Assembly (NCBI RefSeq): GCF_013343235.1
Contig: NZ_CP040094.1
Span: 1,178,501-1,242,500, forward strand
Source of the DNA: Nostoc sp. TCL240-02
Lineage (GTDB): Bacteria > Cyanobacteriota > Cyanobacteriia > Cyanobacteriales > Nostocaceae
Length of the DNA stretch: 64,000 nucleotides
Direction: 5' to 3'
This document shows, in pieces, positions 36,215 through 42,974 of this stretch (position 1 is its first letter; every line of letters begins with the position of its first letter). The position numbers and the translations under genes were made by a program. The notes under the pieces are model-generated. The model had not been told where the DNA came from, searched no databases, and was given only the letters and a program-made list of their open reading frames with translations.

Positions 36215-37261
36215 TCAGCGAATTTTGACAAATCCAGCTTGGGTAATAAATTCTTGTCCCTGTTCAGTCAGCAGTAAGTTGGCGTAAGCGACACCTGCTT
36301 GCTGCTCAGTCTGACCATTCTGTTTGACCACCACAAACAGATTGCGGGTAATCGGGTATTTTCCTGATTGGAAAGCCTCAATATTCAATTTGTTCCGTTT
36401 ACCAGGACATTCAGACGGGAGGACAAATGTTTCTTGGTAAGGAGCAATATATTGCCCTTGTTTTCGCCCTAACGGTAAGGGTTTGATTGAACATTGAGGA
36501 ATCACCTCTGGGGCAGAAGCGTAGTAGATACCACCAGAACTACCAGCCAATTTTTGCAAGGCTTGGGTGGTTGTGGAGATAAATTCCACATTGGGGCTGA
36601 AAGCTTGACCACCCAAGATGTCTTGGACAAAAAGTTCTACAGTACCGCCATCAGCAATGCGGCGAGAATAGGGCTTAATCGGAATATTGGGGCCACCCAC
36701 CTGGCTCCAATTATTGATTTTGCCTGTGTAAATTGACTTTAATTGGTCTACCGTTATTCCTGGGATTTTGAGGTTGGGGTTGACTGCAACTGCTAAACCA
36801 TCAATAGCTACAGGAATTTGTTTCAAACTGAATCCACGCTGCTGGGCACGGCTTAATTCTTGATCGAGGACTGGTCGGGAAGACTGGGCAAAGGCTAGCT
36901 GACCGTCTATCAGTGACTGGATGCCAGTACCAGAACCAGGAGATGCGTTGCTAGGTTCTACATAACGCAGCCGAAACTCTGGTCGCGCCGCTTGAATTGG
37001 TGAATCAACTACCAAGCGAATCGGTGCCCAAGATGTACTGCCTCCATAATTGAATAATCCTGTAGGAACATCTTGTGTTGAGGCAAAAGTCTTGCCACTA
37101 GGTTGTTCTGATACAGCTTGTGGTGTTTTGGTGCTACCAGAATTAATTGCATTTAGGTCAACACCAGACTTTCTACTAAACCACCAAAAACCGCCAGCTA
37201 TTAACCCGGCTGTGATTAGGATGGATAAAACAAGAATAGTTGTTTCATTTTTTTGAGACAT
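36215..37261 (-). CDS. Membrane-anchored PstS-like binding protein A
   Basis: 348 aa. Begins MSQKNET, followed by one transmembrane helix (ILVLSILITAGLIAGGFWWF). The rest (about 65-348) is a PstS/PBP-like phosphate-type binding domain: FNYGGSTSWAPIR, GSGTGIQSLIDGQLAFAQSSRP, IPVAIDGLAVAVNPNL, LKSIYTGKINNWSQVGGPN, ITRNLFVVVKQNGQ. It is 40-50% alike by eye to the protein at 38989-40032. The last gene of the kinase cluster, 272 bp after the preceding gene. The anchor is uncleaved-looking, so it stays on the membrane, and no ABC permease is nearby. Confidence 0.85.
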   Translation of the reverse strand: MSQKNETTILVLSILITAGLIAGGFWWFSRKSGVDLNAINSGSTKTPQAVSEQPSGKTFASTQDVPTGLFNYGGSTSWAPIRLVVDSPIQAARPEFRLRYVEPSNASPGSGTGIQSLIDGQLAFAQSSRPVLDQELSRAQQRGFSLKQIPVAIDGLAVAVNPNLKIPGITVDQLKSIYTGKINNWSQVGGPNIPIKPYSRRIADGGTVELFVQDILGGQAFSPNVEFISTTTQALQKLAGSSGGIYYASAPEVIPQCSIKPLPLGRKQGQYIAPYQETFVLPSECPGKRNKLNIEAFQSGKYPITRNLFVVVKQNGQTEQQAGVAYANLLLTEQGQEFITQAGFVKIR

Positions 37262-37533
37262 AGTAAATTACCCGCACGTCCATTCAATATAAGTGCTTAA
37301 CTTGATAGGTGCTTGCTACTTGAGATTGTATTTGGCGGACGGGTGTTTTGTTAATGAATTATGACAAATCCTAACTTCTGAATTACTTACGGTTTTAGAT
37401 ATAGTAAATTTCCTTTGAATTATTTGTTAGTTCTGGTAGTTGATATTATAATTTTTCCCTCTAAAGCTCAATTTCTCATCTTGAGAGCTTTTTTAGATTA
37501 ACTATTGGTTAATTTTTAATTTTTTATTGCTGA

Positions 37534-38931
37534 TTAACGCACTGGCTCAAAGTCATAACCAGTGCGAGAGCGAGAACCAGGAACGATTTTTACAAGTTGG
37601 ACTAGCGCATTGCGATCGCCTGATGCTAAAAACCGAATTGTACCAGAAGCGCCGGTGGCAGAAAAGTCAGACGATGCCAGGGCTTGTTGGATTCCCGATC
37701 TTGTGGGATTGCGTTCTAATGCGGCAATCAAAGCTACAGTAGCATCATAACTTAGGGCACTTCGCCAACTCACATCACCACCCCATAGCTGCCGAGATTT
37801 CTGGGGGAAATCTGATTTGGAAGCGCCGTCAATATGCCAGGGAACTGCCACTACCATCCCCACAGCTTGTTCTCTACCAATCTCTAAAGTTTTGGCGGTA
37901 TAAACATCATCTCCAGCCAGTAGTGTTAATCGTTTTTGGTTAATTTGAACTACTTGCAGGGCTTTATCGAGAGTTTCAGTGTTAGCAGCTAACATCAAGA
38001 CTTCTGCACCTTGCTTAGTTGCTTGTTCTAGACTTTTGGCCGCACTAAAATCTGCTCTGGATAAGTCAAATTCGCTGGATACTTGTCCACCTTCTAAAGA
38101 AACAGATGAAACAAACTCAGACTTTAAAGACTGGCTATAGTTGCTCTGAGAATTAAAGAAAACCACTGCATTTTTTTTCTGCAAGGTTCTCACCATGTAG
38201 TTGGCTAAACTTCTTGCAGCCATAAAATCACTGGGAACTGTGCGAAAAACGTAGTGGCTAAAGTTAGAAATTTTGACAGATGTGCTAGTAGGGGAAATTG
38301 CTACAAGTTGTCCTGAAGTATAAATAGTACCTGCGGCTAAGGTAGAATCGCTAGTAATCGGCCCAACTACACCCAATACTTCTGAATTGCTAACTAGGCT
38401 AGAAGCGATTTGCTTCGCTATTTCTGGATTGTCGTCGTCGTTAGCTATCCCTACTCTCAACGGCACTCCCTTAATTCCCCCAGAGGTATTAATTTCATTT
38501 TGGGCTTGAGCGATGCCACGTAAAATTTCTAAAGAAGTATTGGGGTCAGTGCCTATTGGTACAGAAGCCATAATGGTGTAACTCTTAGAAGACTTGATGC
38601 GAGCGTTATTAAGAAAGATCAGCGCTTCTGGATCGTTACGGTTGAGTTTTAGGGAATCTGTGAAATTAGCGATCGCCTTATCATAACTTTTCGCAGCGAT
38701 CGCCTGGATTCCTTCTTTTTTTGCAGCAGAAACCGCACCTGGAGTCAAAGTTTTGTCTCCTAAACTAATCCGATCTTGTAGGGATGGATTGTTAGCTGGT
38801 TCTGAACCTGGAATGATGGTATTACCTATTTTGGCTCCACCATTAGTAAACCACCACACACCACCGCCAACTATTCCAACTGTCAGCAACAGAGCCAAGG
38901 CTAAAACTGCGGTTTCATTCTTTTGTGACAT
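37534..38931 (-). CDS. Membrane-anchored TPR + LivJ-type binding protein B
   Basis: About 465 aa from ATG 38931 (MSQKNET; two more codons to ATG 38937). After the same N-terminal anchor comes a TPR-like pair of helices (about 65-105; KSYDKAIANFTDSLKLNRNDPEALIFLNNA), then a Peripla_BP_6 domain of the branched-chain amino acid type (about 115-460; AQNEINTSGGIKGVPLRVGI, VVGPITSDSTLAAGTIY, SALSYDATVALIAALE). It combines a protein-interaction module with a ligand-binding module outside the membrane. It lies between the two PstS-like proteins, all on one strand. Confidence 0.85.
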   Translation of the reverse strand: MSQKNETAVLALALLLTVGIVGGGVWWFTNGGAKIGNTIIPGSEPANNPSLQDRISLGDKTLTPGAVSAAKKEGIQAIAAKSYDKAIANFTDSLKLNRNDPEALIFLNNARIKSSKSYTIMASVPIGTDPNTSLEILRGIAQAQNEINTSGGIKGVPLRVGIANDDDNPEIAKQIASSLVSNSEVLGVVGPITSDSTLAAGTIYTSGQLVAISPTSTSVKISNFSHYVFRTVPSDFMAARSLANYMVRTLQKKNAVVFFNSQSNYSQSLKSEFVSSVSLEGGQVSSEFDLSRADFSAAKSLEQATKQGAEVLMLAANTETLDKALQVVQINQKRLTLLAGDDVYTAKTLEIGREQAVGMVVAVPWHIDGASKSDFPQKSRQLWGGDVSWRSALSYDATVALIAALERNPTRSGIQQALASSDFSATGASGTIRFLASGDRNALVQLVKIVPGSRSRTGYDFEPVR

Positions 38932-38988
38932 GAACAAGTTTTAATAAAATAAAAATGTTTATTATTTGGCTAAATCTAACTGCTTTGA

Positions 38989-40032
38989 TCATTTAATTCT
39001 GACAAATCCAGCCTTTTCGATCAGGTCTTGACTCTGAGGCGTCAGCAGCCAATTTGCATAAGCTTCGCCTGCTTGCTGATCTGTTTGACCATTCTGTTTA
39101 ATAATTACAAATAAATTGCGAGTAATTGCATAATCTCCACTTCGAAATGCCTGACTATTTAATTGATTACGTTTATTGGGACATTGAGATGGAGGTACAA
39201 ACGGTTGTTGGTAAGGGGGCACTAATTGACTACTTGTGCGCCCCAGTGGTAAAGATTTAATAATACACTGAGGTACAACCTCTGGGGCAGATGCATAGTA
39301 AATTCCCCCAGGATTTGCAGCTACTTTTCGTACTGCTTCAGTGGTCGTGTTAACATAACTAACATTGACACCAAAATTTTCTTTATTTAGAACATTTTCG
39401 AGAAAGAATTCTACTGTACCCCCAGCTTCTTTGCTACGAGAGTAAACTTTAATTGGTAAATTTGGCCCACCTACTTGTTGCCAATTAGTAATTTTGCCAG
39501 TGTAAATGTCTTTGAGTTGGGCGACAGTTAAACCAGGGATGTTGAGATCGTGGTTGACAGCGATCGCAATTCCATCAATCGCCACTGGAATTTCTTTCAA
39601 ACTAAACCCTTTTTGTTGAGCTTCGGCATTTTCTTCAGCCTTTACTGAACGAGAAGACTGAGAAAAAGCTAGTTGATTGTCTATCAACATCCGAATCCCA
39701 GTTCCAGATCCTGCTTGACCTGACGGAGGTTGAGTGTAACGTAAAATAAACCGAGGGCACTGGCTTTCTAGTACGGAGTCTACATTTTTACGAATAGGTG
39801 CCCAAGTTGTACTACCACCATAGTTGAATGTCCCTTCTACGAGGTTGGGCACGTTACATCTACTGATAAACTGATTTATCGGGTTATCTGTGTTGTTAGT
39901 CCCCGAAGATTTTGCAATAGTTCCATTTAGTTGCGCCCACCGTTCCATAAAAAACCATAAGCCGCTAAAGATTAAGCCAATGGTGATGACAGCAGCTAAG
40001 AAAAGACTAAGTGTTTCGTTTTTCTGAGACAT
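38989..40032 (-). CDS. Membrane-anchored PstS-like binding protein C
   Basis: 347 aa. Same start MSQKNET and one transmembrane helix (FLAAVITIGLIFSGLWWF), then a PstS-like domain nearly parallel to protein A (FNYGGSTTWAPIRKNVDS, GSGTGIRMLIDNQLAFSQSSR, LKDIYTGKITNWQQVGGPN, YAITRNLFVIIKQNGQ). A Cys pair (CIIKSLPLG, PPSQCPNKRN) is conserved between A and C. It begins 28 bp after the kinase stop, so the two are surely one operon. Confidence 0.87.
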   Translation of the reverse strand: MSQKNETLSLFLAAVITIGLIFSGLWFFMERWAQLNGTIAKSSGTNNTDNPINQFISRCNVPNLVEGTFNYGGSTTWAPIRKNVDSVLESQCPRFILRYTQPPSGQAGSGTGIRMLIDNQLAFSQSSRSVKAEENAEAQQKGFSLKEIPVAIDGIAIAVNHDLNIPGLTVAQLKDIYTGKITNWQQVGGPNLPIKVYSRSKEAGGTVEFFLENVLNKENFGVNVSYVNTTTEAVRKVAANPGGIYYASAPEVVPQCIIKSLPLGRTSSQLVPPYQQPFVPPSQCPNKRNQLNSQAFRSGDYAITRNLFVIIKQNGQTDQQAGEAYANWLLTPQSQDLIEKAGFVRIK

Positions 40033-40060
40033 TATGTGGCTATTAGCACCAAAAGTTTTT

Positions 40061-41458
40061 TTAAAGGATGAGAGATAATAATTTATAAATAAGCCGAAAT
40101 ATGGCTGTTAGTGAAATTGCTACTAAAGCTGCTGCAATTGATAAAATAATTACTCCCTGAATGCCAAGCCCCCCTTGTAAAAAGGGAATAAAAAAAATAA
40201 TTGCAAAAGTAATTGTTGGAATAATTAATAAATCGAACTTTTCAATCCACCGCCTAGTTTGGGCAAATACCAGTATCCCCAGAATTACAGATGCAACGCT
40301 TAAAGTAACTATTGGTGATTGTACTAGACTGAAGAGGGCGATCGCTATCAATGCCCCCTCAAATCCACTAAATGCCGCCCCACCCAATAATTCCACTGTA
40401 GAAAATGCTGGTTGAGTTGGTGGAGACTGGGAGACGACGGGATTAGAACTTTTAGGAGATTGTGGCGGAAGTGTTACAGAAGGCGAATTAAGTTGTGTAG
40501 CGGCTAGAGGCTGTGAGTAAAGTGCATCTAGAACTTCCTGCGCTGACTGAAAGCGCTGATTAGCAGCAGGTAGCAGCATCTTATCTAAAATGTCAGCAAG
40601 GCGAGGATTGACATTTACTTGCTCCCGCCATTTCCACTGGTTGCTATAGGCATCAAATAGTTGAATTGCTTCTTTATTAGTCAATAAGGTAATAAGAGTT
40701 ACAGCTAAAGCGTATAAATCTGTAGACGGAAATACTTGCCCCCCTGCCATCTGCTCAGGCGGTGCAAATCCCATAGAATAAATTCCTGTGGAAGAAGCAG
40801 CCCCTAGTGCAACATTTGTTACTTGTTTAACTGCGCCAAAATCTAGTAGAAAAAGTTTCCCATCGCGACGGCGCATAATATTAGAGGGTTTAATATCTCT
40901 GTGGATAATACCCCGTTCGTGGACAAACTTTAACACCTTCAAGATTTCTTGCAACACCTCTAACACTTGGTGTTCAGAAAATTTGCCCTGTTGAACTAAT
41001 TCTTCTTCTAAATTTTGCCCATCAATATATTCTTGTACTAAGTAAAAAAATTGATCTTCCTGTCCTGATTGCGAACTATTAACTATCACTGGAAAGAAGG
41101 CAAACAAGTCAGGAATTTGTTCATGATCGTTACCAAGTTGTGCTAGAACGTCTGCCTCTCTCTCAAACATTATCTGTGCTTGTTGCAGTTGAGTTGAGGT
41201 TAAATTACCCACTGGTTGAAACTGCTTAACCACGCATTGACGCATTCCTGGGATGCGGCGATCGCGTGCCAAAAATGCTGCTCCAAACCCACCCCTTCCC
41301 AGCAACTTCGTGGGTACATATCGACCATCTAACAGCAGTGGCATACCACACGTAGTACAGTATTTTTGCTGCGTTGTTTTCAGGGTTGTAATATCATCTA
41401 AATCAGCAAAATAGTTTTGTGGGCGTGGACAACGTGGACGAGTACAGTAAACTTCCAT
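40061..41458 (-). CDS. Ser/Thr protein kinase with 4-Cys prefix and membrane tail
   Basis: 465 aa. Residues 1-45 hold the zinc-ribbon-like 4-Cys prefix (CTRPRCPRP, CTTCGMPLL). The kinase domain follows (about 50-310): P-loop GRGGFGAAFLA, Lys in CVVKQF, catalytic HRDIKPSNIM, DFG in LLDFGAVKQ, APPEQM; all active-site residues are intact. A Pro/Ser-rich linker and three to four C-terminal helices (about 355-465) anchor it. First gene of an operon with three anchored solute-binding proteins, suggesting extracellular ligand sensing coupled to phosphorylation. Confidence 0.92.
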   Translation of the reverse strand: MEVYCTRPRCPRPQNYFADLDDITTLKTTQQKYCTTCGMPLLLDGRYVPTKLLGRGGFGAAFLARDRRIPGMRQCVVKQFQPVGNLTSTQLQQAQIMFEREADVLAQLGNDHEQIPDLFAFFPVIVNSSQSGQEDQFFYLVQEYIDGQNLEEELVQQGKFSEHQVLEVLQEILKVLKFVHERGIIHRDIKPSNIMRRRDGKLFLLDFGAVKQVTNVALGAASSTGIYSMGFAPPEQMAGGQVFPSTDLYALAVTLITLLTNKEAIQLFDAYSNQWKWREQVNVNPRLADILDKMLLPAANQRFQSAQEVLDALYSQPLAATQLNSPSVTLPPQSPKSSNPVVSQSPPTQPAFSTVELLGGAAFSGFEGALIAIALFSLVQSPIVTLSVASVILGILVFAQTRRWIEKFDLLIIPTITFAIIFFIPFLQGGLGIQGVIILSIAAALVAISLTAIFRLIYKLLSLIL

Positions 41459-41748: not shown

Positions 41749-42762
41749 TTAGTCTTCGCCAGAGGAGGCGGGTATTGCTATATCCAATGTAGTTACCACG
41801 ATGTTTTTTTGTGCTAATTTTAACACATCTTTACTCCATCCAGGGTTAGCAAACTGGGGCAAAATTTCTTGACTAAAGGCTTCTGCTGCCTTGGATCTAT
41901 AGCGATTAGGATTAAAAATCAACCATAGCGTGCGTTTGACGACTACCCCTTCAATAGGGGTACGGTGCAGAACACCCATTTGTAACTCTTTTGCGATCGC
42001 ACTTGTTGAAACAAAAGCAGCCCCTAAACCAGATTGCACGGCATTCTTAATTGCTTCAATGGAATTTAGTTCCATTTCAACCTTAAAACGTCTGGTATCA
42101 ATTTCACAGCGTCCTAGCACTTGGTCAATCACTTTACGGATGGTCGATTGGGAATCTAGGGCAATGAATTGTAATTTATATAGGTCTTCTTTTTGGATTG
42201 TTTCAAGTTTAGCAAAGGGGTGAAAGACAGGTAAAATCAGCGCTAGTTCATCTTCTGCGTAAGAAATAACTTCCAAAGATTCTGATAGTTCACCAGGAAT
42301 TTCACCGCCGATTATTGCCAGATCAACTTGTCCGTTAGCGACACTCCAAGCAGTCCGCCGGGTAGAGTGGACGTGTAATTGCACTGCCACATCTGGATAT
42401 TTTTGTCGGAACATTCCGATCATTCTAGGCAAAAGATAAGTGCCGGTGGTTTGAGAAGCACCGACAATTAACGTACCGCCTTGGAGATTTTGTAAATCCT
42501 CAATGGCGCGGCAGGTTTCTTGACACAGACTGAGGATTTTTTCACCGTAATTTAGGAGTAGATGTCCTGCTTCCGTTAATTGGGCACGTCGTCCTCCACG
42601 GTCGAATAAAGGGACATCTAGCTGCCGTTCGAGATTTTGGACTTGTAAGCTGACGGCAGGCTGGGAGACATAAAGACTATCGGCGGCACGTTTGAAGCTT
42701 CCTTCTTGTGCGATCGCTTTTAAAATCCGTAACTGATCTAAAGTGAAAGGAAGGTCAGACAT
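41749..42762 (-). CDS. rbcR: LysR-family regulator RbcR (Ycf30-like)
   Basis: About 337 aa from ATG 42762; the 45 bp before it have no family likeness. N-terminal helix-turn-helix ([40 protein letters not shown]) and an effector domain beginning [20 protein letters not shown]. The highly conserved sequence matches the cyanobacterial/plastid RbcR group that controls RuBisCO and carbon metabolism genes. Divergent from nnrU, 212 bp apart. A CcmR/NdhR identity is less likely. Confidence 0.82.
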
Positions 42763-42974
42763 AAGGCTCAACCCACAAACATTGAAAGGAGCGGATGCAC
42801 ACAACAAATAAACTTTGGCAGCAATCAGCCGCGTATGATTTGTTGCATATTAAACTTGAAGACTTGACTCGAAAAGGACAGTAGCACAACATCTTGACTA
42901 AAGTCTCCTTTGGAATACTTTGTGGTATTGGTTGTACTGAATTCAATTTTCTTTAAATTACTTCACCCGTCTAT

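Follow-up and report, generated by a model that had tools for sequence, protein, structure and literature searches.

Why would a Ser/Thr kinase be encoded together with three membrane-anchored solute-binding proteins? The question is raised by a four-gene cluster on the minus strand at positions 36215-41458 of the window, i.e. the whole stretch of 64,000 nucleotides of Nostoc DNA that was analysed. The genes are arranged in the order kinase, PstS-like binding protein B (PstB), TPR + LivJ-like binding protein (TPR-LivJ) and PstS-like binding protein A (PstA), with intergenic gaps of 28, 57 and 272 bp, and are flanked by LysR-type and Crp-type regulator genes. Promoter-like and terminator-like sites in the cluster show no excess over the shuffled expectation. 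The initial annotation had placed the genes correctly, and domain searches agree with its description of a 4-Cys kinase with a membrane tail, followed by two PstS-like proteins and one TPR/LivJ-type protein. The answer favoured here, with a probability of roughly 0.74 and judging from sequence, is that the four genes specify a split receptor kinase with multiple inputs.

The first gene (40061..41458, minus strand) encodes a kinase of 465 residues with matches to Pkinase (1.4e-34) and 4Cys_prefix_kin; the NF045510 model for 4-Cys prefix Ser/Thr kinases scores 47.2 bits against a cut-off of 24. The prefix cysteines (Cys 5, 10, 34 and 37) and the intact catalytic motifs HRDIKPSN and DFG can be read from the translation. 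Such intact motifs, which lie outside the NF045510 model, are usual in 4-Cys prefix Ser/Thr kinases. Among the 72 tail kinases of the fetched loci, HRDxKP occurs in 66/72 and DFG in 72/72. The C-terminal membrane tail (approximately residues 353-465 plus the stop codon, 40061..40402, minus strand) was delimited by hydropathy and an alignment of 17 tails, the second tail kinase of this genome (L104) and the remnant in L091 among them. It is hydrophobic, carries an RRWIEK loop and is devoid of any extracytoplasmic or sensor domain. A simple 19-residue scan resolves three hydropathy peaks, and our own reading of the sequence is that of four TM helices. No PDB sequence matched the tail at E <= 1. 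It is proposed that this tail is a docking module.

The proposed counterpart of the tail is the anchor shared by the binding proteins. It occupies residues 1-28 of each and is encoded, all on the minus strand, at 39949..40032 (PstB), 38848..38931 (TPR-LivJ) and 37178..37261 (PstA). All three proteins start with MSQKNET, although the TPR-LivJ ORF also offers a TTG two codons upstream. The initial annotation had further assigned a WWF segment after the anchor helix to all three; this stands for PstA and TPR-LivJ, while PstB has WFF. A degenerate DNA pattern for MSQKNET, which also fits MTQKNET, occurs at three sites in the 7.89 Mb genome, all of them in the cluster. The reversed pattern, used as control, has no site in the same genome, and an anchor profile retrieves the same three copies and none further. 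A chance or generic start was therefore rejected. The seven MSQKNET codons differ among the three genes by synonymous changes only, which favours selection on the protein and led to the rejection of a recent duplication.

The PstA and TPR-LivJ anchors share an identity of 0.61, compared to a maximum of 0.43 in 2000 shuffles of the PstA anchor. Across loci, PstS-like and LivJ-like anchors of one locus show a mean identity of 64% over 28 residues (24 pairs, 17 loci), with unrelated folds attached; this value was obtained with a stricter motif that left out 11 ORFs lacking it and is thus biased towards conserved anchors. The looser count gives 59%, including at least one pair of 0.11 that was taken as a mis-set start. 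The 17 tails and the 28 aligned anchors were sampled from loci retrieved with the tail or with the MSQKNET pattern, and strongly diverged members may therefore have escaped. The anchor has positive charges at either end, so that its topology does not follow from the charge rule alone. The common anchor could also serve membrane retention alone.

Beyond the anchor, both PstS-like proteins match PBP_like_2: PstB (347 residues, 38989..40032, minus strand) with 1.2e-33 and PstA (348 residues, 36215..37261, minus strand) with 2.6e-27. Both miss the curated TIGR02136 (ptsS_2) cut-off of 206.6, PstA with 147.8 bits and PstB with 154.1 bits. The closest solved structures of PstB by sequence are 4q8r, 4gd5 and 9l8j. 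The AlphaFold model of PstA (pLDDT 89.7) contains a helix at residues 4-31 and a low-confidence linker at 38-55, and its Foldseek matches to 9l8j (1.8e-21) and 4gd5 (1.3e-19) point to the PstS fold. The TPR-LivJ protein (465 residues, 37534..38931, minus strand) matches Peripla_BP_6 (6.4e-34) and ANF_receptor. Its model (pLDDT 91.5) is matched by 3hut, 4q6b (a Leu complex) and 3td9, and places TPR-like helices at 69-79, 83-96 and 101-112 between the anchor and the LivJ domain; no TPR was called by the Pfam search.

Do tail and anchor belong together beyond this genome? Across 80 genomes of the order, both were found in 57 and neither in 17, with tail only and anchor only in three genomes each, at author-chosen thresholds of 1e-8 for the tail and 1e-3 for the anchor. 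Fisher's test gives p ~1e-11 with phylogeny ignored, a value that overstates independence because the genomes are related. One of the anchor-only genomes is 61% complete, and in another the match is weak (1.5e-5). In seven families, genomes with both elements and genomes with neither stand side by side; in two of these the latter genome is less than 90% complete.

Linkage was counted for 61 tail ORFs in 60 loci (the window not included; kinase domain in 58/61). In 30/61, the tail ORF is followed on its own strand, within less than 500 bp, by an anchored-type binding protein, which lies 0.8-2.7 kb away in three more. The fetched stretch holds no anchored binding protein for 27/61, two of which are at contig ends; for 24 of these 27, comparison by hand found the anchor elsewhere in the same genome. 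Among loci on named contigs, 56/63 tail kinases are linked to a binding protein, in a sample that is mostly Nostocaceae and whose strains partly overlap the other sample. Starting from the anchor, a kinase orthologue of more than 50% identity is present in 20 of the 40 MSQKNET loci fetched and absent from the other 20. One kinase-less locus (L080) is at a contig end, with the kinase on another contig of the same genome, and in L091 the kinase core is missing. Adjacency everywhere was rejected on these counts, and co-occurrence is stronger evidence than adjacency. The conserved linkage on which the initial annotation depended does exist, though many loci are unlinked.

Fusions provide a further connection. 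Kinase and TPR-LivJ were found in a single ORF in 11 cases among 20 fetched regions of relatives; the regions were picked mostly for long open frames, or for separate pairs, hence 11/20 is no frequency. HRDxKP is present in 10 of the fusions, DFG in 11 and a TM segment between the domains, by hydropathy, in eight. All of the seven run through Pfam contain PF00069 and PF13458. Related pairs also occur in the same genome: L104 combines the second tail kinase with a TPR-LivJ protein whose diverged anchor is missed by the anchor profile, and L058 pairs a kinase with a PstS-like protein. At L056, a 4-Cys-like/kinase-like part, a TM segment and PBP_like_2 are fused; this kinase-like part has no match in Pfam or NF045510, and two homologues score below the Pkinase cut-off.

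The receptor-kinase reading is supported by the linkage, the near-complete co-occurrence of tail and anchor and the kinase/TPR-LivJ fusions in relatives. The same three lines partly support the initial proposal that ligand sensing is passed to the kinase, with the many unlinked loci fitting it less well. In the mechanism envisaged, the binding domains would lie outside the cytoplasmic membrane and take small solutes, amino-acid-like for LivJ and oxyanion-like for the PstS-like proteins. The common anchors would pack on the kinase tail, making each binding protein an interchangeable sensor subunit. Ligand binding would then shift the anchor-tail arrangement and thereby alter kinase activity on cytoplasmic substrates. 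A broader version, for which the odds seem about even, is that of one kinase with many sensors: a TM plug would dock binding proteins of unrelated folds into the kinase tail, so that extracellular inputs (phosphate-like, amino-acid-like) could be added or swapped with the kinase unchanged. The TPR-LivJ module would also plug into caspase, CHAT and AAA proteins, tying nutrient sensing to cell fate in cyanobacteria.

These last partners also suggest another role for the same receptor, in which it would respond to danger or to kin and act within a conflict or programmed-death network instead of nutrient acclimation. In the Nostoc genome analysed, the TPR-LivJ module occurs in fusions with caspase and with AAA_35 domains, and in related genomes with CHAT; the AAA_35 fusion adjoins a TIR-AAA_35 gene. 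Variants with TM and PBP elements are mentioned in a 2020 conflict-system paper, which was counted in favour. However, no effector or toxin domain was recognised, by reading, in the ORFs of 28.7-48.3 kb or, by Pfam, in the cluster genes and the regulator gene on either side, and the pocket segments of the binding domains are conserved. This role is considered unlikely.

The pockets also bear on whether the binding domains are ligand-free periplasmic scaffolds or adhesins that place the kinase. The PstS-like family has GGT in place of the GSGT of its phosphate-binding relatives, with which its pocket segments are partially conserved, and the LivJ pocket segment of L104 is degenerate. Other pocket-segment residues are nevertheless strongly kept: S75 (40/41), S128 (41/41), R129 (37/41) and R200 (34/41) in the PstS-like proteins, and S194 (28/29), S216 (28/29) and D341 (25/29) in LivJ. 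These counts cover 41/53 PstS-like sequences (39 of 51 listed, L058 included, plus two from the window) and 29/42 TPR-LivJ sequences (28/41 and the one in the cluster), with omissions chosen by eye, mostly near-duplicates. A mere scaffold is accordingly held to be improbable.

The initial annotation had noted that no ABC permease is present, which was borne out: among the two permease families searched, BPD_transp_1 and BPD_transp_2, nothing lies within 80 kb of the cluster. The closest BPD_transp_1, and hence any PstC/PstA permease for the PstS-like genes, is ~86 kb off; the closest BPD_transp_2, as in LivH/LivM-type permeases for the TPR-LivJ gene, is more than 5 Mb off on the contig, or ~1.3 Mb assuming a circular chromosome. 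On the basis of these two families, a linked ABC importer was rejected. The binding proteins do have folds typical of ABC importer systems, the genome has 33 BPD_transp_1 and 10 BPD_transp_2 matches, and BPD_transp_2 occurs near 6.75, 6.86, 7.34 and 7.77 Mb with no adjoining Peripla_BP_6 match, which makes an orphan importer partner possible. That the binding proteins serve such distant importers, with the neighboring kinase regulating uptake or being incidental, is nonetheless the least probable alternative, as three Pst-type permease pairs adjoin their own PstS genes, and binding proteins (at 7145383 and 7602014) stand next to two BPD_transp_2 pairs. Also against it are the co-occurrence of anchor and kinase tail and the fusions of this TPR-LivJ module to kinases.

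The activating stimuli of bacterial Ser/Thr kinases have been called an outstanding question (PMC6069109), and none of the sensing-related terms sought is present in a 2025 review (PMC11863333) on cyanobacterial Ser/Thr phosphorylation. As a split receptor kinase, the cluster would provide one kinase family with specific candidates for its sensors, and anchor and tail as a testable docking pair. Two unrelated binding folds would be joined to one kinase through a common plug, and the same sensor module connects to caspase-, CHAT- and AAA-domain proteins.

How does the cluster compare to known systems? A Ser/Thr kinase gene is also found next to a PstS gene in the mycobacterial PknD-PstS2 pair. 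The nearest solved PstS-type proteins, Sll0540 of Synechocystis (9l8j) and 4gd5, resemble the PstS-like proteins in fold and distantly in sequence. Compared to PstS-type phosphate binders, however, the cluster proteins, as read from their sequence, have a TM anchor in the place of a lipobox or cleaved signal, contain the altered GGT and are unlinked to a permease. The initial annotation considered the design to be undescribed, which does not hold for its general form. In the GlnH-GlnX-PknG system of Actinobacteria, a solute-binding protein gene likewise lies beside a Ser/Thr kinase, and transmembrane control was proposed (PMC6069109, PMC9769921); PknG also has a domain that holds a metal by four cysteines (PMC6069109). 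Yet GlnH is a lipoprotein, whereas the Nostoc binding proteins, of two folds, have a common TM anchor. GlnX is a separate 4-TM relay with periplasmic domains, and no GlnX-like gene is found among the ORFs between the LysR- and Crp-type genes. PknG is soluble with a C-terminal TPR, while the Nostoc kinase has a hydrophobic tail and the TPR-like helices are on a binding protein. A 2005 paper lists Kinase + ANF Receptor in Nostoc sp. PCC 7120 and Kinase + solute-binding domain in Streptomyces coelicolor (PMC1262709). There, kinase and LivJ/ANF-like domain form one unit, as in the 11 fused relatives described here; as far as that listing goes, the Nostoc cluster differs in being split, with one kinase and up to three binding proteins, PstS-like ones included. 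What is new here is the anchor common to two folds, its partner tail and their co-inheritance.

The four genes of the minus-strand cluster at 36215-41458 (a 4-Cys Ser/Thr kinase with a membrane tail, two PstS-like proteins and one TPR-LivJ protein) have the content and arrangement that the initial annotation described. The order is kinase, PstB, TPR-LivJ, PstA, and the successive spacers measure 28, 57 and 272 bp. The gene directly upstream of the kinase (window 41749-42807, minus) encodes a LysR-type regulator and shares the strand of the cluster; downstream, a Crp-type regulator gene is found on the opposite strand. A LysR-type gene also occupies the equivalent position in locus L091, which comes from a different family, pointing to a possibly conserved neighbourhood.

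The kinase carries the 4-Cys prefix, the Pkinase domain, HRDIKPSN and DFG. Its hydrophobic C-terminal tail would, by our reading, cross the membrane four times, the positively charged RRWIEK loop joining TM helices 2 and 3; a simple hydropathy scan resolved three peaks. No extracytoplasmic sensor could be recognised in this kinase and no output domain in the three binding proteins. In predicted models, the layout of the latter reverses that of the kinase: a short N-terminal stretch leads into one helix, which a low-confidence linker joins to the binding domain. The parsimonious model for the cluster is a receptor kinase in pieces, in which the anchored binding proteins would act as sensor, with the kinase tail serving as a socket in the membrane and the kinase providing the output.

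The anchor is indeed common to all three binding proteins: both the MSQKNET pattern and the profile built from 28 anchors find these three, and nothing else, in the 7.89 Mb genome. Across the phylum, the exact pattern occurs in 40/386 genomes. The PstS-like and LivJ-like folds are unrelated despite similar anchors, which within one locus share on average 64% identity over 28 residues (range 0.43-0.89; 24 pairs, 17 loci; 11 ORFs without the motif excluded). The MSQKNET codons of the window's three copies differ synonymously, for which protein-level selection would be the simplest reading.

Across 80 genomes sampled from the order, the tail profile (built from 17 tails) and the anchor profile each match 60. 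Both are present in 57, only the tail in 3 (G229, G056, G392), only the anchor in 3 (G399, 61% complete; G410, a weak match; G423) and neither in 17 (Fisher p ~1e-11, phylogeny ignored). For the 74 genomes that are >=90% complete, the corresponding counts are 56, 3, 2 and 13. Seven families (f1, f2, f6, f11, f12, f51, f57) mix genomes having both with genomes having neither, the latter being <90% complete in f12 and f51.

Adjacency of tail kinase and binding protein is common, not universal. Among 61 tail ORFs, 58 also have a kinase domain; 30 are followed within 500 bp by a binding protein that fits one of the two profile types, and 3 more by one at 0.8-2.7 kb. Another is a broken duplicate that precedes an intact copy, and the remaining 27 show no such protein within the fetched stretch (two at contig ends); for 24 of these 27, the genome has an anchor elsewhere. 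In named genomes, mainly Nostocaceae and partly overlapping with strains of the order sample, the 63 kinase loci comprise 56 with an adjacent binding protein, 1 with one nearby, 4 with none and 2 at contig edges. Among the 40 MSQKNET loci fetched, a kinase orthologue (>50% identity) is encoded in 20 and absent from the other 20. The number of binding proteins varies between loci from one to three (commonest order PLP, 20/63), as expected if sensors are swappable. In L091:6811-7513 (genome G121), a kinase gene adjoining an anchored binding protein lacks the catalytic core and keeps a prefix remnant and the tail, and L120:6884-7249 (G159) is a 121-aa tail-only ORF 150 bp ahead of an anchored protein; judging from these two loci, the membrane tail may outlive kinase activity.

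The structural matches of the PstA model (pLDDT 89.7) are PstS proteins, with Sll0540 of Synechocystis (9l8j) ranking first and phosphate-bound 4gd5 next. The pocket segments of the PstS-like proteins mainly retain their residues, yet GGT aligns to the GSGT of phosphate binders, and the NCBIfam PstS score falls under the cut-off. An oxyanion is a plausible candidate ligand; phosphate is unproven. For the LivJ model (pLDDT 91.5), the matches are leucine-binding proteins. S194, S216, T217 and D341, which we take to be ligand-touching residues, are kept in 28/29, 28/29, 24/29 and 25/29 sequences, in segments aligning with amino-acid binders.

Kinase and TPR-LivJ module also occur fused. The TPR-LivJ profile matches in 34/36 genomes of the family, many matches lying in open frames >740 aa, and 11 of 20 fetched regions encode kinase and TPR-LivJ in one ORF. 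DFG is present in all 11 fusions, HRDxKP in 10 and, at the threshold used, a TM helix separating both domains in 8; Pfam found PF00069 and PF13458 together in 7/7 submitted. The fusion L235:487-3018 has a CTRPR...QQRYC..C prefix resembling that of the window kinase. In the window's own genome, none of the four TPR-LivJ matches is fused to a kinase. It does encode paralogous pairs: at L104, a TPR-LivJ protein whose anchor has diverged lies 72 bp after a 4-Cys kinase that has a homologous tail, and at L058, a PstS-like protein, TM-anchored and 52% identical to PstA, comes after a kinase for which one TM is predicted.

The same genome encodes a 712-residue fusion (L056:2572-4710) that opens with a four-Cys-like segment and continues through a kinase-like region and a TM to PBP_like_2, its gene overlapped at the 3' end by an FHA-domain gene (L056:1956-2600). 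Neither Pfam nor NF045510 matches the kinase-like region, whose assignment depends on homologues. These number 303; among the 120 listed, at least 29 by count combine PF00069 and PF12849 (precomputed), and the named ones are cyanobacteria. Two rescanned homologues score 28.4 and 27.7, under the Pkinase cut-off of 31.7. In ten L056-type sequences HGN replaces HRD, and DFG is replaced by DLA (9) or DVS (1); the branch therefore resembles pseudokinases and looks like a second, pseudokinase-based sensor. A further ORF of ~1330 aa (L054:29-4021) combines a PBP_like_2 domain with a signal-like segment at the N-terminus.

Other effectors carry the TPR-LivJ module as well. The window's own genome encodes a caspase-TM-TPR-LivJ fusion (L105:4804-7335, TM predicted), several named relatives of which are 'caspase, EACC1-associated type', and, at L106:1032-5446, an AAA_35-TM-TPR-LivJ fusion (TM predicted) whose gene is preceded by a TIR-AAA_35 gene. 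In other genomes CHAT is fused to the module, with two LivJ-like domains in protein P0124 and one in L222:600-3029. These caspase, AAA_35 and CHAT fusions make receptor-like use of the module a recurring theme. A metacaspase with ANF_receptor was reported in 2012 (PMC3501461), and a 2020 paper mentions conflict-system variants with TM + PBP (PMC7159879).

Parts, linkage, co-occurrence and fusion of the system are observed; for the proposed receptor kinase, we infer topology, docking, ligand control and substrates. The anchor has positive charges on either side, so its orientation is deduced from the fused relatives, in which a single TM helix follows the kinase, caspase or AAA part. The cluster is a real and conserved sensing module that is likely to be functional.

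In the part of the open-licence full-text literature that was covered, neither the shared anchor nor the tail nor the split multi-sensor arrangement was found described. The earlier claim that such a design is 'not described' is too strong. Control of PknG via GlnH and GlnX has been proposed (PMC6069109, PMC9769921), and a 2005 survey enters Kinase + ANF Receptor in Nostoc 7120 and Kinase + solute-binding domain in Streptomyces, and includes the pknG-glnH cluster (PMC1262709).
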